Shown piece by piece: positions 3,708 through 29,261 of a DNA stretch of 29,264 bases. Position numbers and translations under genes: made by a program. Numbering within the stretch: the stretch's first letter is position 1; every line of letters begins with the position of its first letter. The notes beneath the pieces are model-generated. The model was not told the DNA's origin. It saw only the letters and a program-made list of their open reading frames with translations, and did no database searches. Source of the stretch: a virus; the IMG/VR virus record IMGVR_UViG_3300024520_000365, positions 1-29,264 of that record. One strand, written 5' to 3'.

Positions 3708-4078
3708 TGGCTAAACTATTAAACACAAAATTACCTATTTCTCTTGATCCTTTAGTTGTTCCTTCTTTTGTGTATAACAGAATGGTTAGAACTGTTGAAA
3801 TAGCTTTTGCTGGTTTTGATCCAAGTGCTACTCCGCAATTTACAGAAACAATCCGCAATGAAAATTTATTTAATGCTGGTGATATTATTTGGAATACTAC
3901 TAGAGAAGTTCTACAGTATTTTGATGGTACAAATTGGTACAATTTATCCACAGAAGAAGAAGTAGGTCTACAAGCAAAAGCGTCTGTAGGAGAGGTAACG
4001 GTAACACTTGATGGTAACGTAACAATAAATATAACCGGACCTAAATATGGTTGGGGTATAGAAAAATGGTATACATAA
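3707..4078 (+). CDS. Hypothetical small virion-associated protein, 123 aa
   Basis: Both ends are one-base TAATG overlaps with neighbours, so it is translationally coupled to the large virion protein before it and the endolysin after it. The middle contains FNAGDIIWNTTREVLQYFDGTNWYNLS, an aromatic 'DGTNWY' motif common in phage fibre and tail proteins. The C-terminus is Thr/Val-rich beta. No membrane segment. No family is recognised; a small fibre or tail-tip decoration is the best guess. Confidence 0.5.
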   Translation: MAKLLNTKLPISLDPLVVPSFVYNRMVRTVEIAFAGFDPSATPQFTETIRNENLFNAGDIIWNTTREVLQYFDGTNWYNLSTEEEVGLQAKASVGEVTVTLDGNVTINITGPKYGWGIEKWYT

Positions 4079-4521: not shown

Positions 4522-4597
4522 AGTTAAAAAAATAAAAAGAAAACCCATGAAAAGTGGAAAAGTTTCTAACTATAAAAAATCTTTAAGGAGACCATAA
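4511..4597 (+). CDS. Very short basic peptide, 28 aa
   Basis: The translation begins MVARVKKIKRKPMKSGKVSN. 12 of 28 residues are Lys or Arg and none is acidic. It overlaps the endolysin end by 11 bases and its stop overlaps the next ATG (TAATG), which supports real translation despite the tiny size. An AGGA lies about 11 bases before the ATG. It is the first of three consecutive highly basic proteins. Function unknown; nucleic-acid binding is plausible from charge. Moderate-to-low confidence because of length. Confidence 0.4.
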   Translation: MVARVKKIKRKPMKSGKVSNYKKSLRRP

Positions 4598-4743
4598 TGG
4601 CTAAAAAAGGACTGTACGCGAACATACACGCTAAAAGAAAAAGAATAAAAGCTGGATCAAAAGAAAAAATGAGAAAGCCCGGTACTAAAGGAGCTCCAAC
4701 AAAAGCAAATTTTAAACGAGCTAAGAAAACGGCTAAGAAATAA
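4597..4743 (+). CDS. Small Lys/Arg-rich protein, 48 aa
   Basis: AAGGAG precedes the ATG. The sequence starts MAKKGLYANIHAKRKRIKAG, followed by SKEKMRKPGTKGAPT and a lysine-rich tail. 19 of 48 residues are Lys/Arg with a single acidic residue. The 'GLYANIHAKRKRI...KMRKPG..GAPT..F' pattern is one I recall as recurrent in marine phages and cyanophages with no assigned role. It overlaps the next gene by one base (TAATG). Possible DNA or RNA condensing protein or virion-packaged peptide; function not established. Confidence 0.7.
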   Translation: MAKKGLYANIHAKRKRIKAGSKEKMRKPGTKGAPTKANFKRAKKTAKK

Positions 4744-5039
4744 TGGCGGCAAGGCAGAAAGCAATACGAAAAACCACTAAAGGTAAGGGGGCTAATTATC
4801 GCCCTACCAAAAGTGGCGCGGGCATGACTAAAACAGGTGTTAAAGCCTATAGAAAAAAGAACCCTGGATCTAAATTGCAAACAGCCGTTACAGGCAAAGT
4901 AAAACCAGGCAGTAAGGCAGCGAACCGACGTACATCTTATTGCGCAAGGTCTGCGGGTCAGCTTAAGAAAAGCTCTGCTAAAACAAAGAATGATCCTAAT
5001 TCAAGGATCAGACAAGCGCGCAAAAGGTGGAAGTGTTGA
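4743..5039 (+). CDS. Basic conserved phage protein, 98 aa (resembles the DUF6321 family)
   Basis: Strongly basic. Visible conserved blocks are GAGMTKTGVKAYRKKNPGSK, LQTAVTGKVKPGSKAANRR, then TSYCARSAGQL and a closing QARKRWKC. The 'RR-[ST]-[FY]-CAR-S/M-x-G ... R-x-A-x-x-[RK]-W-x-C' arrangement with paired cysteines is, as I remember it, the signature of a small family in T4-like cyanophages and other marine phages (DUF6321). The two Cys positions might bind a metal or form a disulphide. It lies between the other basic peptides and a nuclease gene. Function unknown; a packaged nucleic-acid-binding protein is inference. Confidence 0.7.
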   Translation: MAARQKAIRKTTKGKGANYRPTKSGAGMTKTGVKAYRKKNPGSKLQTAVTGKVKPGSKAANRRTSYCARSAGQLKKSSAKTKNDPNSRIRQARKRWKC

Positions 5040-5040
5040 T

Positions 5041-5481
5041 ATGTACGAATATAAATGCAAAGTTAAAAGAGTGGTTGATGGTGACACTATGGATGTTATT
5101 CTTGATCTTGGGTTCGATGTCCTTCATGCTTGTAGGGTCCGTCTGGCTGCTATTGATACGCCCGAGTCGAGGACTCGTGACTTGGATGAAAAAGCGCGAG
5201 GTAAACTTAGTAAAGCCTACCTTAAAGAAACTATTAAAGGAAAAAAGATTGTATTAAAGACTAAAATAAAAGATGCAAAAGGTAAGTTTGGACGAGTAAT
5301 AGCCGAAGTTTGGGCAGAGTTTGAAGAAGGCTCAATGCGTAACGTTAATGAATTAATGATAAAAGAATGTTATGCAGTAAGATACAACGCCCAAAATAAG
5401 GCTCTAGTACACGACGCTCACATGGCAAATCGTGCTATATTAATAGAAAAGGGGCTGTTTACCCCCGTGGAGCCTAAATGA
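5041..5481 (+). CDS. Thermonuclease (SNase-like) family nuclease, 146 aa
   Basis: A staphylococcal-nuclease OB-fold enzyme, Ca2+-dependent phosphodiesterase acting on DNA or RNA. Conserved elements are VVDGDT (Asp15), VRLAAIDTPES (Arg34, Asp39, Thr40, Glu42) and GKFGRVIAEV (Arg85); these match the Asp21, Arg35/Asp40/Thr41/Glu43 and Arg87 catalytic set of S. aureus nuclease. The length fits a single domain. No signal peptide, so it acts in the host cytoplasm or is carried in the virion. The start at 5041 is chosen because it directly follows the previous stop and begins at the first strand; an upstream in-frame ATG at 4990 would overlap the basic protein. The end overlaps the i-spanin start by four bases (ATGA). 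Possible roles are host DNA degradation for nucleotide reuse or clearing DNA at lysis. Confidence 0.9.
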   Translation: MYEYKCKVKRVVDGDTMDVILDLGFDVLHACRVRLAAIDTPESRTRDLDEKARGKLSKAYLKETIKGKKIVLKTKIKDAKGKFGRVIAEVWAEFEEGSMRNVNELMIKECYAVRYNAQNKALVHDAHMANRAILIEKGLFTPVEPK

Positions 5482-5879
5482 AGTTAGCTTTGATCTTGGG
5501 GTTTTTATTGTTATCAACGGTGGCTGGATCTGCGTGGTACATAGACAGACTTCAAGATAACATAGGAACATTAAAGGGCAATCAACTTGTCTTAGAGACT
5601 AAGATTCAAGAACAAAACGAAGCCATTGAAACCGCTTTAAACAACCAAAAAAAGGCCCAAACGCTTATGGCTTCTTTAGAAAAAGAGAAGCAAGAAGCGA
5701 TGCGTGATGTTAATAAATTAAGAAAAACATTTGCTAAACACGACCTAGATGAATTAACTTTAGCAAAACCAGAACTTATGCAAGGCAAAATAAACAGAGC
5801 TTCTAAACGAGTTTTAGAAAACTTAGAAAAATTAACCGATCCCAACCAATTTGATGAAGAAGTTAGCAATAATACTTAG
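5478..5879 (+). CDS. i-spanin (Rz-like inner-membrane lysis protein), 133 aa
   Basis: A short N-terminal hydrophobic helix (about residues 2-20, LALILGFLLLSTVAGSAW) is followed by a long periplasmic coiled coil (about residues 22-85, rich in Q/E/K heptads) and a charged C-terminal part. This is the layout of Rz-type i-spanins, which join with an outer-membrane lipoprotein to fuse inner and outer membranes in the last step of Gram-negative lysis. The decisive context is that the next gene, a lipoprotein, starts within its 3' end in another frame. The start forms an ATGA overlap with the nuclease. Sequence similarity to lambda Rz is not visible, as is usual. Confidence 0.75.
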   Translation: MKLALILGFLLLSTVAGSAWYIDRLQDNIGTLKGNQLVLETKIQEQNEAIETALNNQKKAQTLMASLEKEKQEAMRDVNKLRKTFAKHDLDELTLAKPELMQGKINRASKRVLENLEKLTDPNQFDEEVSNNT

Positions 5880-6228
5880 TTTGGCCGTAGTGGCTTCAAG
5901 CTGTTCTATGATGGGGGATAGGGTCAAGCCTGTTTCCGTAACCACCATTTCTAAACAACAACCGATGTACCATCCGCCTTTACCAATGGAAGTGCAAATG
6001 GATCCAGTTGATTGGGAGATACTAACTCCAGACAGTATGCAATTGTATTTAGATAATTTAGAAAAAGGAGACGCACCAAGAAGGGCATTTTATACCTTAT
6101 CCAGCAAAGAATACGAACATTTAAGTATGGATATGGCAGACATAACTAGGTATATAAAAGAAGTACTAGGTATTATAAAGTTCTACAGAGACTACGATAA
6201 AGAAGAGGAAGGAGAAAACAATGAATGA
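5854..6228 (+). CDS. o-spanin (Rz1-like outer-membrane lipoprotein), 124 aa
   Basis: The N-terminus MKKLAIILSLAVVASSCSMM is a lipoprotein signal with Cys17 as the lipidation residue (lipobox VASSC, slightly weak at -3). ATG 5854 is preferred over the TTG codon just before it. The mature part has QQPMYHPPLPMEVQMDPVDW, a proline-rich linker, then LTPDSMQLYLDNLEKGDAPRRAFYTLSSKEYEHLSMDMADITRYIKEVL. This last block resembles proteins I recall from T4-like cyanophages and other marine phages next to lysis genes. It overlaps the i-spanin gene by 26 bases in the +1 frame, the classic overlapped-spanin arrangement, and would partner the 133-aa protein. Confidence 0.7.
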   Translation: MKKLAIILSLAVVASSCSMMGDRVKPVSVTTISKQQPMYHPPLPMEVQMDPVDWEILTPDSMQLYLDNLEKGDAPRRAFYTLSSKEYEHLSMDMADITRYIKEVLGIIKFYRDYDKEEEGENNE

Positions 6229-6607
6229 TGGTTCAGGAAGATTTGGTGGAGACATGGACAGAAATGAGGTTGAAATCGACCTTAGTAAGTTCATGGCATT
6301 GTTACAAGAACAATCCACTTTAAAAGACAGAATAAGAGAGTTAGAGGACGAAGGAACTAAGAATCCGCATCAAAGGTGGATATTTCTTGCTCAAGCCATA
6401 GACAGTTGGCGTATATTTCCAAGAGCTTTTTTAAGTGTTTATATGTATTTATTGTATTACACTACCTTTTGGTTCATGGATTTAGAATCACCCAGTTTTG
6501 AGCAATCGGGATTAATCTCTATTGTGGTAGGTGCAGGTGCAGCATGGTTCGGTCTTTATGCAGGTACTTCAGGTTCAAGTAAGTCCTTTAAAGGGGAAGA
6601 TAAGTAA
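6221..6607 (+). CDS. Two-helix membrane protein, candidate holin, 128 aa
   Basis: Good ribosome binding site (GGAG) inside the end of the o-spanin gene, overlapping it by eight bases. The N-terminal half is soluble and charged with a coiled segment (LLQEQSTLKDRIRELEDEG). Two hydrophobic stretches follow: FPRAFLSVYMYLLYYTTFWFM (about residues 68-88) and GLISIVVGAGAAWFGLYAGT (about 97-116), with a short SGSSKSFKGEDK tail. Two closely spaced C-terminal helices with a charged tail beside the spanin pair suit a holin, which would open the inner membrane for the endolysin. 'IFPRAFLSVYMYLLY' is a recurrent marine phage motif as I remember it. The 53- and 58-aa proteins are rival holin candidates. 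Confidence 0.55.
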   Translation: MNDGSGRFGGDMDRNEVEIDLSKFMALLQEQSTLKDRIRELEDEGTKNPHQRWIFLAQAIDSWRIFPRAFLSVYMYLLYYTTFWFMDLESPSFEQSGLISIVVGAGAAWFGLYAGTSGSSKSFKGEDK

Positions 6608-7739: not shown

Positions 7740-8764
7740 TGGCCGCTTACGCAAATAACACAACACGGGCAACTTACGAAGAACCGTGGGTGCAGGCCAT
7801 GCGACAAGGCTATTTGAACTCCATGTTCGATTTTGCCAAACAACCCACACCAGTACCCGTCAGACAAGTTGCTGGGTTAAGTCCCGAAGAATTAAAAGCC
7901 CGTGAACTTTCGGGTGGATTAGGAGGATTTACTCCGTACTTTGAGCAAGGCGCACAGATGATGCAAGGGGGCTACGGCACTCAACAACAAGGCAGAGACA
8001 TGTACGGCAGAGGCGCAGATGCTACTAATGTAGGCATTGGCATGTACGGCAGAGGGGCCAATCTAACCGATCAAGCCAGTTCGTTTTACGCTCCGGGTGC
8101 AGCTGAACAATTTTACAACCCTTACGAAACTGGCGTAGTACAACAAACGTTAGCGGATTTAAAAGAAGCGGGCATTGGGCAAGGTTACGCAGACAGAGCA
8201 GGACAAGTAGGACAAGGAGCTTTTGGCGGTTCTCGTGGTCGTATAATGGCGGGCGAAAGAGCAAGACAAGAAGGCCGTGGCGCTATGGAAGCCGTAGGAA
8301 AAATTCGTTCAAGAGGCTTTGAAGGGGCTCGATCTGCCGCACAAGCAGCTGGGCAAGGACTGGGGCAACTGGGCAGTCAATTTGGAAACTTTGGCGCAGG
8401 AATGGGTCAATTAGGTGGACAGTTTGGTCAATTCGGCCAAGGACTGGGATCGCTTGGAACTCAAATGGGGCAAATGGGTACTAACTTTGCAGGATTAGGC
8501 ACAACGGGACAAAGTAATTTAATGAATCAAATAAACATGCTTAATAAGCAAGGTGGCACAAGCCGAGGTATACAAGACGATATGTTCAAATCTCAATACG
8601 ATGCGGCCACCAGTTTGTCTCAGGAGCCGGGCAATAGATTGGGTATATTAGGTGGTGTGTTACAAAGATTATTGCCAAGCACAGGAGTTGAGACAACGTT
8701 TGGAAACGAAGCCGGGGTTAATTCTTTAGCGGGTCTTTTAAAACTGTTGGGAGCCATAGAATAA
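7739..8764 (+). CDS. Gly/Gln-rich virion protein, 341 aa
   Basis: Joined to both neighbours by one-base TAATG overlaps. N-terminal block: ATYEEPWVQAMRQGYLNSMFDFA. A recognisable conserved core follows (about residues 120-180): AAEQFYNPYETGVVQQTLAD, then GYADRAGQVGQGAFGGSRGR and IMAGERARQ, a pattern recurrent in marine phage structural clusters. Residues ~205-260 are quasi-repeats of G-Q-L/F-G (GQLGSQFGNFGAGMGQLGGQ...), likely an extended or helical filament. The C-terminus is hydrophobic (LGILGGVLQRLLPS). No signal peptide. Probably an internal or neck virion protein that works with the 363-, 602- and 1715-aa products. Function inferred from position and composition. Confidence 0.6.
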   Translation: MAAYANNTTRATYEEPWVQAMRQGYLNSMFDFAKQPTPVPVRQVAGLSPEELKARELSGGLGGFTPYFEQGAQMMQGGYGTQQQGRDMYGRGADATNVGIGMYGRGANLTDQASSFYAPGAAEQFYNPYETGVVQQTLADLKEAGIGQGYADRAGQVGQGAFGGSRGRIMAGERARQEGRGAMEAVGKIRSRGFEGARSAAQAAGQGLGQLGSQFGNFGAGMGQLGGQFGQFGQGLGSLGTQMGQMGTNFAGLGTTGQSNLMNQINMLNKQGGTSRGIQDDMFKSQYDAATSLSQEPGNRLGILGGVLQRLLPSTGVETTFGNEAGVNSLAGLLKLLGAIE

Positions 8765-10572
8765 TGAACTGGAAAAGCAGACAAATGTTTGGAGGACGCC
8801 CCAGCGGTATCGTTCAAATGATGGGTGGCGGAATGACGCCTTACCCCACGCACACAATGCCTAATGGAACCGTGATGCCCGGAGCTGTGCATGGACAAGG
8901 CTATGAAGGAGGAGGAATAACAGGGCCAGCCGCTCCTGCTGAACCATCTATAGAACAACGTGTTGCAATGATAGCTGCACAACAAGGCATAAGCGTACCA
9001 AAAGCTAGAGCTCAATTATTACAAAAAACAGCAACCGATCAAGGACTGCAACTTCCTCCAGAAGCCGTACAGCAATTTGCTGTGGGTATGATTAATTTGC
9101 AAACAGCTTTAGCACAAGGAGTGCCAGCTATGCAAGCAGGTGGAATGGTGGGCGCAGAATTGTTTGAAGAAGGCGACAGCGACATAAACAATGCATTAAA
9201 CACCATGGCTGCTGTTTCTAATCCAGAGGTCCCTGATATGCCAGCCAGCAACGGCATGGCTCTATCCGGTGGAGACATGGGCGGTGAAGAAATGACCATG
9301 GACCAAGGACTTGAAGAAATGGAAGTGTTGGAGCTAAAAGCTAAGTACCAAGAAGTAGCCCTAGCAACGGTAGAAGCGGCTAATAAAGCCATCCAAGAAG
9401 GCGCACCACCGGAACAATTAAAAGAACCCGTTAAAGAAAGATTAATCGCAATTGATGAGCAATACCGTCAGAAAACGGGAACAAATGACACCATTCTTAC
9501 GCCAGAATTTATGGCTAAACTTCAAGGGTTAACGTCCGTGATACCTGCCATGCAAGGCGGCGGACTAAAAGGTTATGAACCGGGTGGAGTAGTTACTGAT
9601 GATGAGGTTTCAAGCCTTTATGTAAACACTGAACTTGATGATGCACGATATGTATACACCAACGCTCATAATAAAAGAATAGAACTAGAAGATAAATTAG
9701 CCGAAGAAACAAACCCTAGAAACAAAAGAAAAATTTTACAACAGTTAAAAAAGGCAAAAGAAATAGAAGCGCTAACCGGAGCTGAATATGAACGTTTAGG
9801 CGGAAGTCAGGCAAGCACTGGTTCTACTTCTACTCCGACGCCTACTCCTACTCCAACACCGACGCCTACTCCGACTCCAACACCGACGCCTACTCCTACT
9901 CCTACTCCTACTCCTACAGGAGAAGAAGATTCTTCTGAAAAAATTCTTGAAGAGCTTAAAGCGCTTAGCACGGTAAGCTCAGACAGTTCTGAACTGCAAA
10001 AGAAAAAACAAGAACTTGCTAGACGTGCGGCGTATTTAGGGGGCAAAACCAAACAAAGCGGTTTAAGCGGATTGTTTGATGTTATGGGCCAAGCGGACGC
10101 GGCTGAAGCAGAAGCAGTGAGTAACATGCCACAACAACTAAGCGCTAACGAAAGCGCCTTAGAACGAATGAAAATGGACATAGAAGCTAAAAGAGATTTA
10201 GCTTTTAATAAAGTTGCAACAATGACGGAAAGTGAACGCGACGCTTTACGTGGAAATCCAATTGCGTTAATGAATATATTCCAATCTATGTCTAAATCTC
10301 CTGACGATGCAGAAGAAGCCATAGAGTTCTTTATAATGCGAGACTGGCCTTTACCTTCTTTCGCAGGAAAAAACTTACCCAGTAAACTAGACGACGAAGG
10401 AAACGAAACCATTACAATTACTCTTAAAACTAAAGAAGGAACTAAAGAAGGGTTAAGTTTTAAAGACTTTTTTAGGTTGGTTAAACAAGGAAAGCCTAGT
10501 GTTACATATCAACAGATATTAGTTTTGTTTAATAAAGGACTTAATAACAACGGTATTCTTGACCAATCCTAA
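8764..10572 (+). CDS. Virion protein with Pro-Thr linker and MQ-x-GG motifs, 602 aa
   Basis: The N-terminus carries Gly/Met-rich motifs (GIVQMMGGGMTPYP, GYEGGGITGPA), then PAMQAGGMVGAELFEEGDSDIN (around 9130) and PAMQGGGLKGYEPGGVV (around 9550). Helical acidic segments lie between them. Residues 357-385 are an uninterrupted (Thr-Pro)n linker. The C-terminal ~200 residues are helical and charged (SELQKKKQELARRAAYLGGKT, then AMEEAIEFF-like sequence near 'SPDDAEEAIEFFIMRDWPLP'). The mix of disordered Gly/Met motifs, helices and a rigid PT spacer suggests a multi-domain scaffold or an internal protein able to unfold for ejection. Coupled to the upstream gene by TAATG; the next gene starts six bases after its stop. 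Unknown exact function. Confidence 0.6.
   Translation: MNWKSRQMFGGRPSGIVQMMGGGMTPYPTHTMPNGTVMPGAVHGQGYEGGGITGPAAPAEPSIEQRVAMIAAQQGISVPKARAQLLQKTATDQGLQLPPEAVQQFAVGMINLQTALAQGVPAMQAGGMVGAELFEEGDSDINNALNTMAAVSNPEVPDMPASNGMALSGGDMGGEEMTMDQGLEEMEVLELKAKYQEVALATVEAANKAIQEGAPPEQLKEPVKERLIAIDEQYRQKTGTNDTILTPEFMAKLQGLTSVIPAMQGGGLKGYEPGGVVTDDEVSSLYVNTELDDARYVYTNAHNKRIELEDKLAEETNPRNKRKILQQLKKAKEIEALTGAEYERLGGSQASTGSTSTPTPTPTPTPTPTPTPTPTPTPTPTPTPTGEEDSSEKILEELKALSTVSSDSSELQKKKQELARRAAYLGGKTKQSGLSGLFDVMGQADAAEAEAVSNMPQQLSANESALERMKMDIEAKRDLAFNKVATMTESERDALRGNPIALMNIFQSMSKSPDDAEEAIEFFIMRDWPLPSFAGKNLPSKLDDEGNETITITLKTKEGTKEGLSFKDFFRLVKQGKPSVTYQQILVLFNKGLNNNGILDQS
9832..9918 (+). repeat. (ACN CCN)n coding repeat giving a 29-residue Thr-Pro run
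   Basis: A continuous alternation of Thr and Pro codons for 29 codons. Codon choice shows a higher-order pattern of about 24 bases (ccgacgcctactcc... followed by actccaaca) at the start, then pure cctact repeats at the end. This fits growth by slippage. It encodes a stiff, extended linker between the Gly/Met-rich and helical parts of the 602-aa protein. Confidence 0.9.
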
Positions 10573-10578
10573 TAGATT

Positions 10579-13500
10579 ATGTCTATTAACCCAGACGAAT
10601 TAAATCTAAATGAAATAGATTTAAATGAAATAGATTTAAATGAAATAGATTTAAATGAAATAGATTTAAATGAAATAGATTTAGGCACATTAGACTTAGG
10701 CGAAATTTCTTCAAGCACTCCTCTTGCCGACGAAGACCCCAGTTTCTTTGAAGTCATGGGTCAAACCGTGGATCAACTGCAAGCCAGTGGTTGGGCGGGA
10801 GTTCGTGTACTAGGAGAACAATTTGAAAACGAACGCATGATTGAAGCCGGTAATCGTGGCGTAGCGTTTAACGAAGCACAGGCCGCTAAGTACGGTCGCC
10901 CCATGATGGTAGAGGATATTGAAAATCCTTTAGATGATTTTGGCACATCTGCTGTGGATTACGTTTTTACAAACGCGCTACCGCAAGTGCTTCCGTCCAT
11001 TGCGGCTTCCGTGCCCACGGCTTTTCTTGGCGCTAAAGGCGGAGCAGCTATAGGCACAGCCATTGCTCCAGGAATTGGTACATTTGTTGGAGGAGTTATT
11101 GGAGGCATAGCAGGAGCATTTTTACCTTCTGCTTTTTTAAGTGCAGGGGAAATTGACCGAGAGATGAAAGCCCGAGCGGGAGACGATCATTCGGATCCTT
11201 TAGCAGCAATGGGCGGAGGCGCCATAGTAGGCGCGTTAGACACAGCGGCATTAGCGGTGGGATTAAAAGGTGTGTTGCCACACGTTTTAAAAAGAACCGG
11301 AGGTGGTCGAGAAGTATTGGATAGTTTAATAACTAAGATGGTTGAGAGAGGCGTAACTAAAACCGTGGCTGCACGAGCGATGGCCCAAGGACTTGTTACC
11401 GCAGCCGCAGAAGGTTCCACAGAAGCGGCACAAGAATTAACTCAAGATTACGTAGCAGAATATTCAACCGGGGTTTCTTTAGACGAGGATGAATTAACCA
11501 GCGCATTAGTTAATTCATTTGTATTAGGAGCAATTGGAGGTGGTCCGTTAGGAACAGTTAGCGGAGCTCTGACGCAAAAAAGTAAGAATGAAAGAGCAGC
11601 GGATCAAACAAGAATAAACGAAGAAAATGCTGCGCGGGAAGTAGAAATAGAAGAATGGTCGGCTAAAGAGCTCGACAATAAAAGTTTAAGTGAACTTGAA
11701 CAGTACGCAGATGACAATAACATTAAACGTTTTGAATACAAAAGCGGAGAAGAACAAGAAAGAAAAGCAGAATTAATTAAACGAATTAAAGATTTTGAAA
11801 GAGACAAACGGGTTAAAGAAGACATATCGTACGACATGGAAGAAGCCGGTCTTTCTGAATTAACTTTTCAAGATAAAGTAGACGAGCAACTTAAAACACT
11901 TGAAGTTCTTTCTGATGAAGACTTAGACATTTATATAGAAGAAGAAGGCATTGCTGATCGGTTTGCTTCCGTTAACACCAGAGAAGACAAACTTATTCTG
12001 TTAGCTAATTATGAAGCCAGAGCACTAAACGAAGCCGATGGAAAATCAAAAGCCGGCATGGATTCCCCTACTTTTCGTAAGTTCTATCAAAATTTAGACC
12101 GAACCAATTCTAAAGAAAAACTTTTAGAAATGGCTCGTAAACTTGGCTTTACAAACGAAGAATTTCAAGGCAAAGGAAAAATGGAAATAGCCGCGGATAT
12201 AGCCAAACGAGAAGCTATTTTTGAGATTAATAACAGCGATTTAGAAGCGTTAGCCAATCAAACAGAAGTTCTTCCATTAGAAGTTGAAGAAGATACAGAA
12301 AGTCAAAACAAAGCACAAAGAGAAATTGATAAAGGACGGGCCATTGAAATTAAAGTAGGCAATCGAATTTTTACAAAAACAGAAGATGGTCAATACTTAA
12401 ACGAAACAGGGCAAAGTTATTCAGATTTTGTTCTTCAAGAAGGCGACGTAGAAAAGGGGCCGCTTATCCAACAACTCACTCTTCGTAAAGGATCTTTTAA
12501 AGTTTTTGGTAAAAAAGTAAACCAGGAAAGTTTTATAGGTAGATTTTTTTCTAGTCTTAAAGGAGGAGCGTTTGGGTTTCAACCGTCGGGACCTTTAGGT
12601 TTTGATGGTTTTATGGCTGACCGAGATCGTATTGGCAGACTACGTTCTATCAATAAATCGGCGCAAAGTATAGCCTATCAATGGGAAGAAGTTCGATTAG
12701 CTGCTTTGCAAAGAGGTGAAATTTTATCCGCAACGGAAGCCGATCAATTGGTTATGGATTATTTAAGCGGGGCTAAAAAAACAATTCCTTTGGATAAAGT
12801 AAACAGAGTCATTAAAGAACAAAAATTAAAGAACCTTGAGACTGAATTAAACAACGCAACCGATGAACAAAAAGCTTCCATCACTGAAGAGATGGATTTT
12901 TTACAAAAACAATTGAACGAAAACGTAGATAACAGTTTAAAAGTAGCTTCATTAGAGGAACTTCCTGAGGGCATGAGAGACTTTGCAATTAGGGCTAGAA
13001 AACTAATTGATACGTTAAGTAACAGACTAATAAAAGAACTTCCAAATGATGTTTTAATTGAAAAGATTGGTAACAAAACAAGAAAGCAAGTTATACAAGA
13101 AAACATGGGTAAGTATCTAACCCAGTCTTTTAAAATTTACGAACCTGATTTAGGGTACAACCCCGTAAGTTTTTGGAACAGATTAGGCTTAACCAAAGGA
13201 AGCAGAGCCATGATACAAAAAGTAGAAAACGCAAAAGCAGCCCATCGGAGACTAAAGTTTTCGGAATATACTGTGCAATCGGGGGAAACACTGGAGTCTA
13301 TAGCCAATGCCACAGACTCAACGGTACAGGAATTAAAAGATTTAAACGGCTTATTAACAGACCCTTTACAAGCCGGTAGAGTTATTAAAGTGCTTGGTAG
13401 CAAAGAAAAGGCAAACACTTGGTTAAATAATTTAATGACCAACAGAAATAAAGGTTACGCAGAAACGGGTATTAAAGTTATGGCGGGCCTTAAGCCCAGT

Positions 13501-15726
13501 AAAACAGAAAGTAAAGAACTTGAACTGGCTACTGGTGTATTAAAAGAAAGACAATCTATTCCGCAAGAATGGAAAGAACTAATGGGAGAAATTACTAACC
13601 CCGCACAAGTTCTTACCAACACGGTAACACGGGTCGCCAGTATTTTAGAAAACATGCGTTTTTATAATAAGTTAGAAGGACTTAGTGACACTCCTGGGGG
13701 GCGTTTATTTTCTCCTGTTAAATCAGGATTGTTTACAGAACAAATTGAAGAAAAACTGGGTCTTCCTATTAGCGGGATGTACACCACTAAACAAGTAGCC
13801 GAAGCCATTGGCGTAGTAGAAAAAAATAAAAGTGCTTTGTGGCAAGTTTACGAAACCATGGTTCTTGTGCCAAAAATTGCTATTCAAGCGGGAAAAACGG
13901 TCTACAGTGTTTCAGCTCAAATGCGTAACTTCTTATCCGCAAGTCTTTTTTACTTAGGTAATGGTCATTTTGGTGGTAAAAATTTAGTGGAGTCCATTAA
14001 TGTTTTGCGCGATGAGTTATTTGCCGGGGGTTTTGATACACAAGGAAGGCCTCTTTCAAGACGTATGCAAGCAGAAAAAACATACCGAAAACTTTTGCAA
14101 TTGGGAATTATTAACACCAACGCAAGACTCGGAGAAATTTTAAAAACGTTTGACGAAGTAGCTAAAGATCCGGGTAGCGGTGCAGGACAATTAGCCACTA
14201 AGTTATTAAGCATGAAAAACGGTAAACCTTGGGCGGCTAAATTAGCAGATGTGCCTACCAGACTGTACACAGCGGCGGATGATTTTTGGAAAATAGCGGC
14301 GTGGCAAGCAGAAAGAAAGCAGATAGAGAAAAATTTTAAAGGTGATGAAAAAAGACTTAGCGAATACGCAGAGCATTTAGGCTTGCAAAGTTCTATAACA
14401 GGAAGAACTTTCTCAGATATGGTGGATGAAATTGCGGCTTTTAAAGTTAGGCAAACCATACCCAATTACGATTACGTAGGAAACTTTGCAAACATGATTC
14501 GTAAAACTCCGTTTGGTAATTTTATTGCGTTCCCCACAGAAATTTTTAGAACGGGGTTTAATATTGCAGGACTTGCCTACAAAGACATGACTTTTAGTGG
14601 CATGAGAGGAGCCGGTTTAAAACGTGGCATTGGTTTTGGCACAGCAACTTATGGTTTAAGTACAACAATTCAAGCAGTGGCGCAAAGTTTATCCGACGTA
14701 ACGGATGAAGAACTTGAAGCGGCTAAAAGAACCTTACCACTTTGGTCAAAATACAGCCCCATAATACCACTAGAAAAAATACCTCAATCAAAAGGAGGAG
14801 GGTTTACGTACATAGACGGAAGTTATATTTTAGTCTACGATGAAATTGCTAGAGTTATCCCTACTATTTTAACTGCTACAAAAGAAAATCGTATGGAGGG
14901 TTCTTCTTACCCAGTTTCTGTAACGTATGCAGTGGGAACAGCCGTGCTTAATGTTTTAGAGCCTTATTCTAGTGTGGGTATTGGTCCAAAGATTACGATG
15001 GAAGTGCTTCAAAACAGAAATGCAAACGGCTACCCAATAGCTAAACCAGAAGATAACTTAGGGGATCAAGCAGTGTCGATGTTAAATTACGCTTGGTCTA
15101 AAGCACAACCCGGCGCTTGGGCTCAAATTCAAGCTGTTATGGACAGTACAGCGGCGGACGAAACGTCTTTTAAAAAATACGGAAAGCTGCAAGAGTCTTT
15201 TCCTGCAACCATGTCTTTAATGGGTATACGTACCGATCGAGTTAACCCGACACTTAATTTTAAATACAGTATTGCAAATTATCAAAAACGTATAGGAAAC
15301 GCCGGTTATCAATTTAAAGATTTAGTTAACGATTATGGGTTAGTAACTCCCGAAGATTTATTAGTGGGGTACGACAATGCTAATCAATCTGTATTTGAAA
15401 TACAGCAAGAACTTTATTTAGATCTTTTGGCCACACAAACGTTAAACGGAGATCAGAAAAATATTAAAAATCAATTAAAAGATAGGCTTCCAGGAGTGTA
15501 TAACAAACTTCGTAAAGGACAATTTGTTCCATATAAACCAACTAAAAACTCAGAAGACATTTACAATACTGTTACTGAAGATATGGAACAACAAGTTATT
15601 GCTGCCTACGGAGTCAATACCATTACTCAACGTTATTATCCTAAAAGAGCATTAAGAGATAGAGAAAAATTTTACAGGAGGGGTCGGTTTAATTTACTTC
15701 TTCCGCTTCCACCTTACGAAGATTAA
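10579..15726 (+). CDS. Giant LysM-containing internal/ejection virion protein, 1715 aa
   Basis: The largest gene. Residues 10-34 are five LNEID repeats. Residues ~135-190 are Gly/Ala-rich and hydrophobic (GAAIGTAIAPGIGTFVGGVI then GGIAGAFLPSAFL) and ~212-237 form a second such stretch, followed by AAAEGSTEAAQELTQDYVAE, a pattern I know from large internal phage proteins. A charged helical zone spans ~340-620. Residues 897-940 are a LysM peptidoglycan-binding domain (YTVQSGETLESIANATD ... GRVIKVLG). The C-terminal third is helical and includes FGNFIAFPTEIFRTGFNIAG. No lysozyme or transglycosylase motif was found. The size and membrane-like segments fit proteins ejected with the genome to span the envelope (compare T7 gp16), though no homology to T7 is claimed. 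No clear ribosome binding site; coupling to the 602-aa gene is likely. The last 38 bases overlap the convergent nuclease gene. Confidence 0.7.
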   Translation: MSINPDELNLNEIDLNEIDLNEIDLNEIDLNEIDLGTLDLGEISSSTPLADEDPSFFEVMGQTVDQLQASGWAGVRVLGEQFENERMIEAGNRGVAFNEAQAAKYGRPMMVEDIENPLDDFGTSAVDYVFTNALPQVLPSIAASVPTAFLGAKGGAAIGTAIAPGIGTFVGGVIGGIAGAFLPSAFLSAGEIDREMKARAGDDHSDPLAAMGGGAIVGALDTAALAVGLKGVLPHVLKRTGGGREVLDSLITKMVERGVTKTVAARAMAQGLVTAAAEGSTEAAQELTQDYVAEYSTGVSLDEDELTSALVNSFVLGAIGGGPLGTVSGALTQKSKNERAADQTRINEENAAREVEIEEWSAKELDNKSLSELEQYADDNNIKRFEYKSGEEQERKAELIKRIKDFERDKRVKEDISYDMEEAGLSELTFQDKVDEQLKTLEVLSDEDLDIYIEEEGIADRFASVNTREDKLILLANYEARALNEADGKSKAGMDSPTFRKFYQNLDRTNSKEKLLEMARKLGFTNEEFQGKGKMEIAADIAKREAIFEINNSDLEALANQTEVLPLEVEEDTESQNKAQREIDKGRAIEIKVGNRIFTKTEDGQYLNETGQSYSDFVLQEGDVEKGPLIQQLTLRKGSFKVFGKKVNQESFIGRFFSSLKGGAFGFQPSGPLGFDGFMADRDRIGRLRSINKSAQSIAYQWEEVRLAALQRGEILSATEADQLVMDYLSGAKKTIPLDKVNRVIKEQKLKNLETELNNATDEQKASITEEMDFLQKQLNENVDNSLKVASLEELPEGMRDFAIRARKLIDTLSNRLIKELPNDVLIEKIGNKTRKQVIQENMGKYLTQSFKIYEPDLGYNPVSFWNRLGLTKGSRAMIQKVENAKAAHRRLKFSEYTVQSGETLESIANATDSTVQELKDLNGLLTDPLQAGRVIKVLGSKEKANTWLNNLMTNRNKGYAETGIKVMAGLKPSKTESKELELATGVLKERQSIPQEWKELMGEITNPAQVLTNTVTRVASILENMRFYNKLEGLSDTPGGRLFSPVKSGLFTEQIEEKLGLPISGMYTTKQVAEAIGVVEKNKSALWQVYETMVLVPKIAIQAGKTVYSVSAQMRNFLSASLFYLGNGHFGGKNLVESINVLRDELFAGGFDTQGRPLSRRMQAEKTYRKLLQLGIINTNARLGEILKTFDEVAKDPGSGAGQLATKLLSMKNGKPWAAKLADVPTRLYTAADDFWKIAAWQAERKQIEKNFKGDEKRLSEYAEHLGLQSSITGRTFSDMVDEIAAFKVRQTIPNYDYVGNFANMIRKTPFGNFIAFPTEIFRTGFNIAGLAYKDMTFSGMRGAGLKRGIGFGTATYGLSTTIQAVAQSLSDVTDEELEAAKRTLPLWSKYSPIIPLEKIPQSKGGGFTYIDGSYILVYDEIARVIPTILTATKENRMEGSSYPVSVTYAVGTAVLNVLEPYSSVGIGPKITMEVLQNRNANGYPIAKPEDNLGDQAVSMLNYAWSKAQPGAWAQIQAVMDSTAADETSFKKYGKLQESFPATMSLMGIRTDRVNPTLNFKYSIANYQKRIGNAGYQFKDLVNDYGLVTPEDLLVGYDNANQSVFEIQQELYLDLLATQTLNGDQKNIKNQLKDRLPGVYNKLRKGQFVPYKPTKNSEDIYNTVTEDMEQQVIAAYGVNTITQRYYPKRALRDREKFYRRGRFNLLLPLPPYED
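10606..10680 (+). repeat. Five 15-bp tandem repeats encoding LNEID
   Basis: Units at 10606, 10621, 10636, 10651 and 10666 read ttaaatgaaatagat; the first differs only at its first base (c for t). The copies are otherwise identical, so the array expanded recently. Degenerate DLGTLDLGEI follows. In frame: it adds an acidic amphipathic tract to the extreme N-terminus of the 1715-aa protein. Confidence 0.9.
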
Positions 15727-23737: not shown

Positions 23738-25189
23738 ATGAAACTGAAGAACTATGAATTTAAGAGCGACCCCTACCAACATCAACTTGATACTTTAAAG
23801 TCGAGCGCACATCGTAACCTATTTGCATTATTTTTGGAAATGGGTCTAGGAAAATCTAAAATTCTCCTAGATAACGCGGGTATGTTATTTGAAGAAGGAA
23901 AAATATCTGGACTACTTATAGTCTCTCCTAAAGGTAATTTAAACAATTGGGACAGCAATGAAATAAGCAGGCATTTACCGGAAAGAATTAAACGAAATGT
24001 ATTGGTCTGGCAACCCAACCACACGCAACGATGGACCAAGGCCTTTAAAGATATGGTCCAGAAAGATAGTACCGGGACTTTAAATATACTCTTAGTTAAT
24101 GTTGAAGCTTTTGCTACTGTCAAAGCCTGCACACACGTAGAAGAATTTTTAGTAACTCACGATGCAATGATGGCTATTGACGAATCAACCACTATTAAAA
24201 ATCCTAAAGCAAAGCGCACTAAACATTTAATTAAATTAGGACCGTTAGCAGACTACAGAAGAATTCTTACCGGGTTTCCTATTACTAAGGCTCCTCTTGA
24301 TTTGTACTCTCAATGTTATTTTCTTTCTCCTAATTTGTTGGGGTTCAGTAGCTTCTATGCTTTTCAAGCTAGGTATGCAATTACGCAATCAAGACAAATG
24401 GGAAGGCACGCTTTCCAACAGGTAATGGGGTTTCAAAAGCTGGACGAATTGCAGGAAAGCATTAAAGACTTTTCAATAAGAAGGCGTAAGGAAGAATGTT
24501 TAGATCTCCCACCAAAGGTCTACACTCGCAGGATGGTTGAGCTTACTCCTGAACAACAGGCTGTGTACAGAACCATGAAAAGAGAAGCTTTGATGATATT
24601 AGAAGATGAACTTTTCTCTACCATGAATGTGCTTACTCAATTAATGAGGCTACAGCAAGTAGTAGCAGGAAGTCTTCGTAGTTCCGAAACAGGAGAAACG
24701 ATTATTTTAAAGAACAACAGGGTTCAAACAGTATTAGATTTGCTAGAAGAAACGTCCGGGAAGGTGGTTATCTTTGCTGTATTTCAAACGGACATTCAAG
24801 AGCTGGAAAAAGCCATAGCAAAGAAATTTGGTGTCGGTGTTGTAGCTTCTTATTACGGTAAGACACCGCAGGACGAACGACAAAAGATTATTAATAAGTT
24901 TCAAGAACCGGAAAGTGAACTAAGATATTTTGTATCCAATCCGCAAACAGGAGGCCGTGGTATTACATTAACCGGGGCAAGCACCATGATCTTTTATTCA
25001 AATTCCTACGACCTAGAACTAAGAGTGCAAGCCGAGGATAGAATACACAGGATCGGACAAGAGCACAGTTGCACTTACGTAGATTTAGTTTCTGAGGGAA
25101 CTGTTGATGAGCAAATACTTAAAAATTTATTAAGTAAAGTGAAGATTAGTAATGAAGTTCTTGGTGAAGTTCGCAATTGGTTTGAATGA
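23738..25189 (+). CDS. SNF2-family SF2 helicase/ATPase, 483 aa
   Basis: A double-stranded DNA translocase-type ATPase. Motifs: YQHQLDTL (Q motif-like, 13-20), EMGLGKSK (Walker A, 34-41), LLIVSPKGNLNNW (Ia), LLVNVEAF, MMAIDESTTIKNPKAKRTK (motif II, DEST at 148-151), RILTGFPITKAPLDLYSQ (III), VVIFAVFQTDIQELEKAI, NPQTGGRGITLTGA (V) and QAEDRIHRIGQ (VI, 431-441). The 'RIHRIGQ' ending is diagnostic of the SNF2 group. Phage SNF2-like helicases are common in marine podo- and myoviruses; roles in replication, repair or clearing host proteins from DNA are proposed. It is the only replication-type gene transcribed rightward, under its own near-consensus promoter. Confidence 0.95.
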   Translation: MKLKNYEFKSDPYQHQLDTLKSSAHRNLFALFLEMGLGKSKILLDNAGMLFEEGKISGLLIVSPKGNLNNWDSNEISRHLPERIKRNVLVWQPNHTQRWTKAFKDMVQKDSTGTLNILLVNVEAFATVKACTHVEEFLVTHDAMMAIDESTTIKNPKAKRTKHLIKLGPLADYRRILTGFPITKAPLDLYSQCYFLSPNLLGFSSFYAFQARYAITQSRQMGRHAFQQVMGFQKLDELQESIKDFSIRRRKEECLDLPPKVYTRRMVELTPEQQAVYRTMKREALMILEDELFSTMNVLTQLMRLQQVVAGSLRSSETGETIILKNNRVQTVLDLLEETSGKVVIFAVFQTDIQELEKAIAKKFGVGVVASYYGKTPQDERQKIINKFQEPESELRYFVSNPQTGGRGITLTGASTMIFYSNSYDLELRVQAEDRIHRIGQEHSCTYVDLVSEGTVDEQILKNLLSKVKISNEVLGEVRNWFE

Positions 25190-25197
25190 TGTATAAT
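25170..25197 (+). promoter_or_regulatory. Candidate promoter before the surface-protein cassette
   Basis: TATAAT at 25192-25197 in the 54-base gap, with TTCGCA (25170-25175, four of six matches to TTGACA) 16 bases upstream, inside the end of the SNF2 gene. It shares ATGTATAATAA with the 16596-16606 site. It could give the three envelope-type genes separate timing. Moderate-to-weak support. Confidence 0.4.
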
Positions 25198-25243: not shown

Positions 25244-26446
25244 ATGAAACAAAAAATAACCTTTATAGCAGTTTTGCTTTTTATAGGGTTATTAGGGGCG
25301 GCAGACAACGAACCTGAAAACCCAGATTGTACTGCGGGGACTCAGTATTGTGAACAAAACTCGTTAGACACAACTAACAACACCACAACCAACAACACTA
25401 ACGTCAATACGAATACCAACACAAACACCAATACCACAACGACTACCAGTACAGCAAATAACACAAATGCCAATACTAATGTCAACACGAACACGACAAC
25501 GACAACAGCAACAAATACAAATGCCAACACTAACGTCAATTCAAATACAAGTAATAACACCAACGTAAACACCAGTTCCGCGACCAATACGAACAACAAC
25601 ACGTCGACTGCTACTAATACGAACACAAATAATTCAACAGCGACCAATACGAATGTAAATACATCTACTAATAACAGCACAGTCAACAGTACAGTTAATT
25701 CAAATAATACAAGTACCACGAATAATACGAATACCAATACCAGTAGCAATACAAATAACAACACCAATACAAATAACAGCACCAGCACTTCGGACAATAC
25801 AAATACCAATACTAATACCAACGTGAATCAATCAACGTCTGATTCAAAGGTAGAAACGGATAACACCAACACGAATAACAACAACACAGTCAGCGACAAT
25901 ACGAATCGGAATATTAATGAAAACAATTCAACGCAGACTATAAAGCAAGAGATAACTAGCAAAGCACCCCCCGCTTCTGCGATTGCTCCTAGTATCATGT
26001 CTTATTCACAAGACTTATGCACCGTAGGGCGGTCAGGAGCGTTCCAAGGACAGGTGTTTGGTATATCTGGTGGCAGAACAGTTACAGATCAAAATTGTGA
26101 AAGACTTAAACTTAGTAAATACATATACGATATGGGTATGAAAGTTGCAGCAGTTTCTGTGCTTTGTCAAGATGCTAGGGTATTTCAAGCGATGGAAATG
26201 GCAGGTACTCCTTGCCCTTATATGGGTAAAATAGGTAAAGAGGCTGCAAATGGTTGGAAATCTAATCCTTCTCAAAGACCAGACGCTAAAGAATACAAAG
26301 CTAATTGGATTAAACAGTGTAAAAAAGGATTGAACCCTAATGATACAAACTACAACAAAGATGTTGTAAGTGGAGTAAGAAAAGTTCTAACGAAAAGCAC
26401 CAAGACCACAAAGCAGTGTAAAAAAGAATGGAATAATGTGGGCTAA
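25244..26446 (+). CDS. Exported Asn/Thr-rich low-complexity protein, 400 aa
   Basis: Good ribosome binding site (GGAG) and a clean N-terminal signal peptide (MKQKITFIAVLLFIGLLGAA), so the product should enter the periplasm. Residues ~43-230 are almost only Asn and Thr with some Ser/Val (NTNTNTNTTTT style), full of N-x-[S/T] triplets. A conserved C-terminal domain starts at residue 253: SYSQDLCTVGRSGAFQGQVF, then CERLKLSKYIYDMGMKVAAV, SVLCQDARVFQAMEMAGTPC and PYMGKIGKEAANGWKSNPSQ, with several cysteines. I recall the SYSQDLC...GTPCPY domain from other marine phage proteins, function unknown. The long unstructured tract would act as a stalk or spacer. It overlaps the next gene by 11 bases. Could be a virion appendage, or an envelope protein made in the infected cell. 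Confidence 0.7.
   Translation: MKQKITFIAVLLFIGLLGAADNEPENPDCTAGTQYCEQNSLDTTNNTTTNNTNVNTNTNTNTNTTTTTSTANNTNANTNVNTNTTTTTATNTNANTNVNSNTSNNTNVNTSSATNTNNNTSTATNTNTNNSTATNTNVNTSTNNSTVNSTVNSNNTSTTNNTNTNTSSNTNNNTNTNNSTSTSDNTNTNTNTNVNQSTSDSKVETDNTNTNNNNTVSDNTNRNINENNSTQTIKQEITSKAPPASAIAPSIMSYSQDLCTVGRSGAFQGQVFGISGGRTVTDQNCERLKLSKYIYDMGMKVAAVSVLCQDARVFQAMEMAGTPCPYMGKIGKEAANGWKSNPSQRPDAKEYKANWIKQCKKGLNPNDTNYNKDVVSGVRKVLTKSTKTTKQCKKEWNNVG
25370..25935 (+). repeat. AAYACN-type low-complexity tract encoding poly Asn/Thr
   Basis: About 565 bases of imperfect aac/aat + acn codon alternation with no fixed long unit; codons vary (aat/aac, aca/acc/acg/act). The amino-acid pattern is therefore preserved while the DNA has diverged, which suggests selection on the protein rather than simple slippage. 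Confidence 0.85.
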
Positions 26447-28892
26447 GAAACCAGACCCAGAATATAAAGCAGAATGGTTTGTTGTATTGGGTATGGTAAT
26501 TCTAGGAATTACAGTTTTATTTTTATCTTTTAATACCAAAGCAGATTACATCTATGAAGCGAACCAGTCTTTATACGACTTACAAACGAACACAACAGGT
26601 TCAACAGGATTAGGTTCAAATGACGATGCAGTATCTGGAGCATTTAATATAGGATTTACTTTTGATTTTTATGGTCAGTCTTTTACTCAAGCTAGAATGG
26701 CAACTAATGGTTGTCTGCACTTTAAAACAAGTGGTGCTTATTGTAGTGACTACACACCAGATCCATTACCAGAAGTAACCTACACCCTTTATCCTTTTTG
26801 GACTGATTTAATAAAAGATAACGGTTCAGCTATGAGAGCCAAAGCCTTTGATGATTATACTATTTTTGGTTGGTATAACCTGAGAGAATACAATCGTGCT
26901 AATTCCGATAACAGTTTTGAAGTCTGGTTATACCCTAATGACACCTATGAGTTCCGCTATGGCGAACTGGATATTATTAACCATGATGTTTTGATAGGAG
27001 AACAAGGTAGTGCCTCACAAATTTACACGTACCTTTATCACGATGAATGTAGCACAGGCACAACTAATGTTGCTGGCACATGTGTTAACACTAATTGGAA
27101 CAGTACGGCCAGTAATACTTTACTTGAAGGTGGTGGTTCTTTATACGGTGATGGCACTAATCAATCATTATGTGCAACTACTCCTTTGACTTCAGTTAAC
27201 TGTTCTGGTTATGCAGCAGCTTATCTGGCTCAACAATGTGCATTAAATTCTTTATATGATGAGGATTGTACTGGTTATACAGCAGCTTTTTTAACACAAC
27301 AATGCAATATAACTCAGCTTTACAGTCAGGAGTGTCCTTCCTATTGGAGTGCTTATGATGACCAACAATGTGAAGATGACCCTCAATACTCCCCTTCCTG
27401 TGCAGGCTACACACAAGAAGCCTCTGTTGCTTATTATGTGGAAGAGACAGATTATGGTTTTACCCAAGATGATATGTGGTATGACGAAGAGTACGATGAG
27501 TGGCTAGACCCTTATGATCCCTGTTACGAAAATAATTGTGCAGACTTTACCGATGCTGATTGGTACGAACTTGACATAGAACAGTTTGGTCAAGAACAAG
27601 TAGATGAATGGTACGGAAACGAAGTAGAGTTTTCTAATGATGGCTATATCGAATACGGAACTGTGAATGAAGAAGAATATTGGACAGCCATTGACGATGG
27701 TATGGAAGTATATGATTTAGAACAAGAAGCAACATGGGCAGAAGAAGAAATTTATTTAGTTTCTTACGATGAAATTGAATACGATCCTTTGCCTTTTGAT
27801 ACCAGCGAAGAACTTATAGAAGATTTTATTCTCCATGAAACTGTATTAACAGAAGACTACGAGGATTTAGATGCTTACATAGAATTTGAAAGCGTTGAAG
27901 AACTTGATGAATGGTACGAAGAAGAACAGGAACAGATAGAAGAAGAAAGAATAGAAGAAGAATTACTGGCTGAAGAAGAAAGTACAGAGGAAGTAGAAGA
28001 AGTATTAGAAGAAGTAGTAGAAGAACTCTTTGAAGAAATAGAAGAAGAAAGATTAGCTGAAGCAGAAGAAGAAATATTAGAAGAAAGAGCAGAAAGAAGT
28101 GGTGGAATTACTGCTAGCCAATTAAACGTAGTAGCCAGCACTATTCAAACGGCTTCTAATAGTGTTTCAGGAACTACGGCCCGTACATCAACTCGTGGAT
28201 CAGGTTGGGGCACTAGCACAAGTGGATCAAGTGGTAGTTATAACAGTAGTGGAGGTTCTGTTGTTAGCAGCACCGCAGGCAATACAACGACAACAGCAGT
28301 AGCCAGTGCAGCTTCGGGGGGTGGATTTTCCACTAGCAGTTCTCCTAGTATCTCAGATCAAATACAAACTGCTCAAGTACAAACCAACACAGTTTTAAGT
28401 TTAAGTCAGGATATGGGTTCAACTAGCGGAACGGGCGGAAGCACTCAGACAGTGAGTAATGTGACTACAATAATAACTCCAATGCCGATATTTGATTCAA
28501 ACCCACAAGTGGTAATGGCAGATGTGCAAGTAACCGATATGCAAGGTGAAATTGATACTGCTGTCGGAGGTGTGATGACCGCATCAGAGGCCGACCAGAT
28601 AGCTGACCAAATAGTTGCTGATAATATTAAAGAACAACAAGAAGCAGGACAATCCACCCAAGAAGAAACAGGAGAATACGGAGATCAATCTACTTTAGTA
28701 GCTTTTATGGGCTACGTTCCAGGGTTTGATGCTTATAAAGAAGTACAGATTCCACAACAGGAGACTTGGTACGAGACAAAGGCAATCTATGCAGATGTCA
28801 CAATTTCAGATAACATAGAAGCGTTTTATGGATTAGCAAGAACAAACATTAATACTATGCAAAGTTTAATTAATCAACAACCTAATTTATAG
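26436..28892 (+). CDS. Membrane-anchored NIDO-like surface protein with Cys repeats and Glu-rich stalk, 818 aa
   Basis: Residues 14-33 form one hydrophobic helix (FVVLGMVILGITVLFLSF), a signal anchor or uncleaved signal. Residues ~60-215 resemble a nidogen-type NIDO domain: GFTFDFYGQSF, MATNGCLHF, TLYPFWTDLIKDNGSAMR, FGWYNLREYN, SFEVWLYPNDTYEFRYGELD and VLIGEQGSASQIYTYLY. Residues 246-322 hold eight cysteines spaced strictly 10/12 with C-x-GYxAAxLxQQC blocks. Residues ~340-490 are Asp/Glu/Tyr-rich, ~488-556 an almost pure Glu coiled stretch, ~557-665 Ser/Gly/Thr-rich. The last ~150 residues are a compact conserved-looking domain ending FYGLARTNINTMQSLI. It is a modular adhesin-like protein. 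It starts inside the preceding secreted-protein gene, so the two are probably made together. Host-surface or virion location is undecided. Confidence 0.65.
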   Translation: MWAKKPDPEYKAEWFVVLGMVILGITVLFLSFNTKADYIYEANQSLYDLQTNTTGSTGLGSNDDAVSGAFNIGFTFDFYGQSFTQARMATNGCLHFKTSGAYCSDYTPDPLPEVTYTLYPFWTDLIKDNGSAMRAKAFDDYTIFGWYNLREYNRANSDNSFEVWLYPNDTYEFRYGELDIINHDVLIGEQGSASQIYTYLYHDECSTGTTNVAGTCVNTNWNSTASNTLLEGGGSLYGDGTNQSLCATTPLTSVNCSGYAAAYLAQQCALNSLYDEDCTGYTAAFLTQQCNITQLYSQECPSYWSAYDDQQCEDDPQYSPSCAGYTQEASVAYYVEETDYGFTQDDMWYDEEYDEWLDPYDPCYENNCADFTDADWYELDIEQFGQEQVDEWYGNEVEFSNDGYIEYGTVNEEEYWTAIDDGMEVYDLEQEATWAEEEIYLVSYDEIEYDPLPFDTSEELIEDFILHETVLTEDYEDLDAYIEFESVEELDEWYEEEQEQIEEERIEEELLAEEESTEEVEEVLEEVVEELFEEIEEERLAEAEEEILEERAERSGGITASQLNVVASTIQTASNSVSGTTARTSTRGSGWGTSTSGSSGSYNSSGGSVVSSTAGNTTTTAVASAASGGGFSTSSSPSISDQIQTAQVQTNTVLSLSQDMGSTSGTGGSTQTVSNVTTIITPMPIFDSNPQVVMADVQVTDMQGEIDTAVGGVMTASEADQIADQIVADNIKEQQEAGQSTQEETGEYGDQSTLVAFMGYVPGFDAYKEVQIPQQETWYETKAIYADVTISDNIEAFYGLARTNINTMQSLINQQPNL
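27171..27401 (+). repeat. 22-residue two-cysteine repeat (10/12 spacing)
   Basis: Cys246, 256, 268, 278, 290, 300, 312 and 322 of the 818-aa protein alternate at exactly 10 and 12 residues. Unit: C-[PTS]-x-Y-x-x-A-[YF]-x-x-Q-Q-C-x-x-x-x-L-Y-x-x-[ED]-C. Three full units plus a leading partial one. The spacing suggests stacked, disulphide-linked helical hairpins, sensible only in an oxidising compartment. Confidence 0.8.
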
Positions 28893-28901
28893 GAGAAGAA
28901 T

Positions 28902-29261
28902 ATGGAATGGTTTAAATCAAAAGCAGGGCAATTAATCGCTTTAGCGACTATCGTAAGTACCTTGGCAGGATTCGGTTATGCGGGGGCAGGTTACGTTAAT
29001 AGACTGGAGAACTTAGAGAAGAAAATAGGGGGTCTAGGTGAAACAGAAGATGCCCAACAAGTCATAGAACAAAGGTTTGCGACTATTGAAACTTCAGTAG
29101 AGTATTTAGAAAAAGAAATTGATGGTATAGAGATTCCTGATAACAACGATAAACTCTCTAATATGAAAGCATCTATCGCTGGTCTGACCAATAGTGTAGA
29201 AAGAATACTTATTGATATTGAAAAGCTAGAGGATGGGAATAAAAATCCTTTAGCAAATTAA
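28902..29261 (+). CDS. Membrane-anchored coiled-coil protein, 119 aa
   Basis: Strong GGAG ribosome binding site. One hydrophobic helix (about residues 10-30: LIALATIVSTLAGFGYAGAGYV) is followed by a coiled coil (RLENLEKKIGGLGETEDAQQ, RFATIETSVEYLEKEIDGIE and a second block LSNMKASIAGLTNSVERILI). The layout resembles an i-spanin or a small phage membrane organiser, but a true spanin pair already exists at 5478-6228. It is third in the envelope cassette and could anchor or organise the two surface proteins before it. The stop is complete three bases before the window ends. Confidence 0.6.
   Translation: MEWFKSKAGQLIALATIVSTLAGFGYAGAGYVNRLENLEKKIGGLGETEDAQQVIEQRFATIETSVEYLEKEIDGIEIPDNNDKLSNMKASIAGLTNSVERILIDIEKLEDGNKNPLAN

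Follow-up and report, generated by a model that had tools for sequence, protein, structure and literature searches.

We identified three adjacent genes, here named A, B and C, that are co-inherited as a single block in hundreds of related marine phages. The first-pass annotation of this DNA had taken them for a possibly undescribed three-gene envelope cassette, and the gene order and co-inheritance found across relatives uphold a co-conserved envelope module without a described family. With slightly less than even confidence, we favour the explanation that A-B-C is a co-inherited late trans-envelope module that acts in lysis or egress and is distinct from the phage's own spanins. A bolder form of this explanation is possible though more doubtful, namely that the products make up a new kind of three-protein, Sec-assembled trans-envelope machine, which would carry a C-terminal NPL docking tail and complete lysis or release in a way unaccounted for by holin-endolysin or spanins. 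Pfam and PHROGs searches returned no function for A-B-C, and no description of the module was found in the open-access article texts searched.

Genomic location of the A-B-C module

The analysed stretch (the window) covers positions 1-29,264 of the IMG/VR virus record IMGVR_UViG_3300024520_000365 and is one genome fragment. A 99%-identical contig (L001:5783-10274) has structural-looking genes and a small-terminase-subunit-like gene downstream of the module, indicating that the window is part of a larger genome. The DNA polymerase of the window shares 51-55% identity with its counterparts in HTVC023P-type pelagiphages, pointing to SAR11 or a relative as the probable host. A, B and C are the last genes of the 29,264-base window, all on the + strand, with the following features:

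25170-25197, + strand: sigma-70-like promoter match TTCGCA-16-TATAAT upstream of A (10/12; not above shuffle expectation)
25244-26446, + strand: gene A, 400 aa, predicted exported Asn/Thr-rich protein with a C-terminal Cys domain (phrog_20531, 8e-16)
25319-25939, + strand: A residues 26-232, Asn/Thr-rich stretch (64% N+T, background 12%)
26006-26311, + strand: A Cys domain, SQDLC..NCERLK..CQDARVF..TPCP, predicted helical core (dN/dS about 0.05)
26436-28892, + strand: gene B, 818 aa, signal peptide, beta-sandwich head, Cys repeats, Glu-rich rod and conserved C-terminus
26547-27050, + strand: B head, residues 38-205, predicted beta-sandwich, NIDO-like by pattern only (mean pairwise identity 77%, dN/dS 0.067)
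28356-28889, + strand: B residues 641-818, conserved C-terminal part with the motif WYETKAIYADVTISDN
28902-29261, + strand: gene C, 119 aa, predicted inner-membrane TM and periplasmic coiled coil
29244-29252, + strand: NPL motif at the C-terminus of C, nearly invariant across the family

All three open reading frames of the first-pass annotation are present at these coordinates, and the recurrent A-B-C order in relatives and the low dN/dS indicate that they are not chance ORFs. They are tightly packed, as had been noted. A shares 11 nt with B, and the step from the last base of B to the first of C is 10 nt; an A/B overlap and this 10-nt step are also the commonest spacing among relatives. As to the proposal that the module may have its own promoter, there is a 10/12 sigma-70-like match, but the number of matches in the region is no higher than in shuffled sequences (11 vs 12.6).

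Several other features of the window were recorded outside the module. Two small, very Lys/Arg-rich ORFs lie between the lysozyme and nuclease genes (4597-5039), and an in-frame Thr-Pro repeat (9814-9929) lies within ORF 8764-10572. The 1715-aa ORF 10579-15726 has an in-frame 15-nt repeat near its start (10582-10701), and its product has an N-terminal virion-structural match and weak endolysin-family matches at residues 830-955.

Distribution and co-inheritance of A, B and C

To follow the module across relatives, we searched with B and with the Cys domain of A. The B search yielded 78 viral-contig loci, all of which keep the visible order A-B-C on one strand. The A Cys-domain alignment matched at least 597 viral contigs. 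It also matched 26 genome-assembly contigs, most of them from marine MAGs, which may be binned phage DNA. At 175 loci with A, 122 had a complete next ORF of at least 200 aa; this ORF was strongly acidic in 108/122 cases and was then followed by a C-like gene in 117/122.

A and C have homologues in the Pelagibacter phages HTVC023P, HTVC033P, HTVC115P, HTVC202P, Baldr and Mosig, and also in the Roseobacter phages CRP-207 and CRP-810. Among 14 named phage genomes, every one with A (11/11) has a strong C adjoining it. The other three (HTVC027P, 023Pt_psg01 and DSL-LC04) have no A, and their C matches are weak coiled-coil ones at most. The distances of A, the B C-terminus and C correlate with one another (Mantel r 0.77-0.85). 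The first-pass annotation had staked its proposal on such co-conservation, and co-conservation is what we observed.

Predicted properties of the A protein

The product of A starts with a hydrophobic signal peptide, followed by about 200 Asn/Thr-rich residues and the C-terminal Cys domain, in agreement with the earlier description of an exported Asn/Thr-rich protein. The Cys domain belongs to phrog_20531, a family without a described function whose record does not include the three-gene unit. PDB fold searches with this domain gave nothing significant.

Small lipoproteins with the core of the A domain are encoded directly upstream of A in three phages:

L084:1725-1940: CRP-207
L080:6367-6627: CRP-810
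L086:886-1101: ct7L0027

These lipoproteins are related to one another by tblastn. Those of CRP-207 and CRP-810 match the A profile (E 4e-5) and, weakly, phrog_20531 (0.004-0.007). The CRP-810 lipoprotein gene is preceded by an 80-aa TM and coiled-coil gene, forming a spanin-like pair. The ct7L0027 lipoprotein gene likewise follows an 80-aa gene, which belongs to the same PHROG families. This arrangement resembles that of i-spanin and o-spanin and suggests an outer-membrane site of action that the A domain may have.

Predicted properties of the B protein

The product of B opens with a signal-peptide-like segment ahead of a predicted beta-sandwich (residues 40-202); Cys repeats come next, then an extended Glu-rich region, and the C-terminal part is conserved. 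The first-pass annotation had described it as a membrane-anchored NIDO protein, and neither half of this description was supported. A cleavable Sec signal peptide is likelier than an anchor, because the homologues have classical ones, many ending in ..KA ahead of DYIYE; judged from these N-termini, B is more likely to be Sec-secreted. Pfam NIDO was unmatched in the window B at E<=1 and in 38 homologues at E<=0.1.

AF2 predicted a beta-rich domain, a beta-sandwich, at residues 40-202, with low confidence for B except in the head and the 350-430 region. Fold comparison of the head gave a best VIA Z of 5.2, to unrelated GH/PL domains; we treated this likeness to GH/PL-associated beta domains in the PDB, with its middling scores (Z about 5), as uninformative. 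Matches of B in BFVD were phage proteins without a described function.

In distant relatives, the gene at the B position shares the position, the signal peptide, mostly an acidic stretch, and a C-terminal FY..IY motif. The motif was found in 48/50 proteins of the window group and in 43/72 B-position proteins of other pelagiphages, compared to 22/860 in the background. Homology between the two groups was not supported by hhalign (probability 5%), and the one sequence feature they have in common is the short motif. Their heads differ in kind, being carbohydrate-binding-like in other pelagiphages (a weak CBM_4_9 match) and of NIDO-like pattern in the window.

Predicted properties of the C protein

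For C, we predicted a single TM near the N-terminus, a coiled coil and an NPLAN tail, consistent with the membrane-anchored coiled-coil protein described earlier. To examine the tail, we took as C candidates the genes at most 60 nt beyond B, irrespective of how they end. An NP[LMF] ending was present in 101/112 of these genes, compared to 47/4,104 (1.1%) of other ORFs. N and P are the sole invariant residues among 34 diverse C proteins, and L is nearly invariant; the N-terminal hydrophobic segment and the coiled coil are conserved as well. Pfam gave generic coiled-coil matches only.

Two proteins labelled as lysozymes, CRP-207 gp73 (L084:3292-3873) and CRP-810 gp51 (L080:7971-8393), have no lysozyme domain; they are C homologues with the TM, coiled coil and NPL tail. 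In HTVC115P, the C-position gene itself has no NPL tail, and a second C-like protein ending in ENPLSNMK (L081:10541-10969) is encoded three genes past it.

These predictions bear on whether A and B might instead be fibre or decoration proteins of the virion, with C as an assembly helper, which we consider improbable. The late-gene context beside structural genes in many relatives, the fibre-like composition and the carbohydrate-binding-like heads would suit such an appendage. However, signal-peptide-like N-termini were found in 158/162 A and 135/139 B homologues (by a simple rule that 45% of other ORFs also pass), the TM of C is conserved, and the module is carried alike by T7-like, T4-like and HTVC023P-type phages. 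No virion proteomics of a carrier phage was found in the literature searched. Virion appendage and aggregation of infected cells had both been offered by the first-pass annotation, and nothing positive was found for either.

Linkage of the module to lysis genes in the window group

The window contains its own set of lysis genes, which in relatives lie next to the module; they are listed here with the SNF2 gene that adjoins the module in the window:

4051-4521, + strand: lysozyme-type endolysin (Phage_lysozyme 6e-11), adjoining the module in relatives
5478-5879, + strand: i-spanin, Rz-like (phrog_739 1.6e-9), directly after C in relatives
5851-6228, + strand: o-spanin lipoprotein (phrog_812 Rz-like spanin 4e-14), overlapping the i-spanin gene
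6221-6607, + strand: two-TM gene, holin-like by topology alone (phrog_10198, unknown function), directly before A in relatives
23738-25189, + strand: SNF2-family helicase upstream of A (context, outside the module)

In four contigs that are 91% identical over the module (L002-L005), the order is nuclease, two-TM holin-like gene, A, B, C, i-spanin, o-spanin, lysozyme and structural gene. A second order, lysozyme-nuclease-i-spanin-o-spanin-holin-like-A-B-C, was seen in L062, L064, L071 and others. In the window lineage, A-B-C lies behind SNF2 instead; the lysis genes of the window are at 4051-6607. The module had been described as transcribed apart from the main structural block; this is true of the window's lineage but not of most relatives, and in close relatives the module lies inside the lysis cassette, so the position is a local rearrangement. 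A chimeric SNF2-A junction was rejected, since the junction is kept in L001 (99.3% identical) and the same order occurs in L037 and L040, the latter reading SNF2-A-B-C-i-spanin-o-spanin-nuclease-lysozyme.

Of the 16 loci in the dereplicated window group whose flanks were long enough on either side, 11 had a recognised lysis gene nearby. Many of the loci belong to a single phage group and are non-independent, and part of this linkage may reflect common descent. No lysis gene lies beside the module at the other 5/16, the window's own lineage included. The link is looser in distant phages than in the window group. In HTVC023P an M15 peptidase (endolysin) directly follows C, and 117 genes downstream of C in distant relatives included 7 M15 and 3 lysozyme genes. 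A terminase gene follows C in HTVC202P, Baldr and MedDCM-S28-C10. In Mosig the neighbourhood of the module includes primase and ribonucleotide reductase genes, and primase genes are found repeatedly downstream in relatives.

A linkage of this kind also speaks to the idea that A-B-C is an auxiliary envelope module unrelated to lysis, serving envelope protection, altered uptake or cell aggregation. Its parallel would be the phage-borne curli (T8SS) module (CsgG, CsgF, CsgA/B, FecR, AC), a multi-gene export module that pelagiphages carry and exchange across SAR11-infecting groups and that is not described as lysis-linked (PMC9599517). A-B-C likewise travels as one block, and some relatives do not have it. 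However, it is a different gene set, Pfam detected neither Csg components nor curlin repeats among the proteins scanned, and its linkage to lysis genes in the window group is clear; we therefore regard an auxiliary role as unlikely.

Relationship to spanins

The favoured role in lysis or egress invites comparison with two-component spanins (Rz/Rz1). C has the same topology of an N-terminal TM and periplasmic coiled coil, A has conserved cysteines, the module is located in the lysis cassette, and in CRP-810 a lipoprotein with the A core is part of a spanin-like pair. Unlike spanins, A-B-C consists of three genes rather than two, window A and B have no lipobox, and the same genome also has a genuine spanin pair. 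In the window, the o-spanin (5851-6228) is the one lipobox ORF with a TM coiled-coil ORF as its partner, and A, B and C had no PHROGs spanin-family match. Since a canonical spanin pair and a lysozyme are already present in the same genomes, the module is not simply a missing spanin.

We also looked for an anti-correlation of the module with canonical spanins using a simple pair finder, and found none. The pair finder recovered the window's own spanin pair. It found no convincing Rz/Rz1 pair in HTVC027P, which has no A, or in the module-bearing pelagiphages scanned, and thus does not discriminate between them. HTVC027P, which has neither A nor an NPL-type C, is nevertheless reported to lyse its host (PMC12753301), indicating that the module is not needed in every relative. 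Membership of a known family was rejected for A-B-C, as none of the families compared matched it in every defining feature.

Selection on the A domain and the B head

We estimated dN/dS from 20 loci and obtained about 0.07 for the B head and 0.05 for the A domain, with synonymous sites near saturation. Among the comparison genes, the spanins gave about 0.2, a structural protein 0.28 and the lysozyme, whose set may mix non-orthologues, 0.44. The A domain and the B head are thus under strong purifying selection, which argues against an arms-race role. The low dN/dS also suggests that the B head probably binds something conserved.

Such selection weighs on receptor masking or superinfection exclusion, in which the exported proteins would cover or modify the surface of the host in late infection, sparing progeny from debris or excluding competitors. 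The predicted export of A, B and C and the different kinds of B head in different phage groups are consistent with this idea, and T5 Llp and similar receptor-blocking lipoproteins illustrate the principle of a phage protein exported into the host envelope (PMC9586334). T5 Llp is, however, a single lipoprotein that blocks one receptor (FhuA), whereas A-B-C comprises three proteins without a lipobox, conserved over distant phages. Moreover, the head is the most conserved part of B, unlike an arms-race interface; window A and B have no outer-membrane anchor; and the module is in a late, not early, position. Superinfection exclusion and surface remodelling, as put forward in the first-pass annotation, are therefore disfavoured by purifying selection and late position, and we hold receptor masking to be rather unlikely.

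Proposed mode of action

For the favoured trans-envelope module, we infer a complex that would assemble across the periplasm. C would sit in the inner membrane through its N-terminal TM, with the coiled coil in the periplasm and the NPL tail as a candidate docking peptide. Sec-secreted B would dock to the periplasmic complex through its conserved C-terminus, its Glu-rich rod would span the periplasm or peptidoglycan, and its beta-sandwich head may bind a conserved envelope glycan or protein. Secreted A, with its Cys domain and Asn/Thr-rich tether, would reach the outer side of the periplasm. After holin and endolysin have acted, the complex may assist in rupturing or opening the outer layers, or may set the timing.

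In a survey of spanins, 91/677 phages had no identifiable spanin, and other routes of outer-membrane disruption were called for (PMC6139136). HTVC023P, one of the carriers, belongs to a pelagiphage group that is reported to be the most abundant known in the ocean (PMC12753301). How SAR11 phages break the envelope is largely undescribed, and A-B-C may bear on this question. Its signatures, namely the A Cys domain, an acidic B with FY..IY and a C with the NPL tail, make the module testable in cultured isolates and allow it to be recognised in many genomes that now list three 'hypothetical proteins'.
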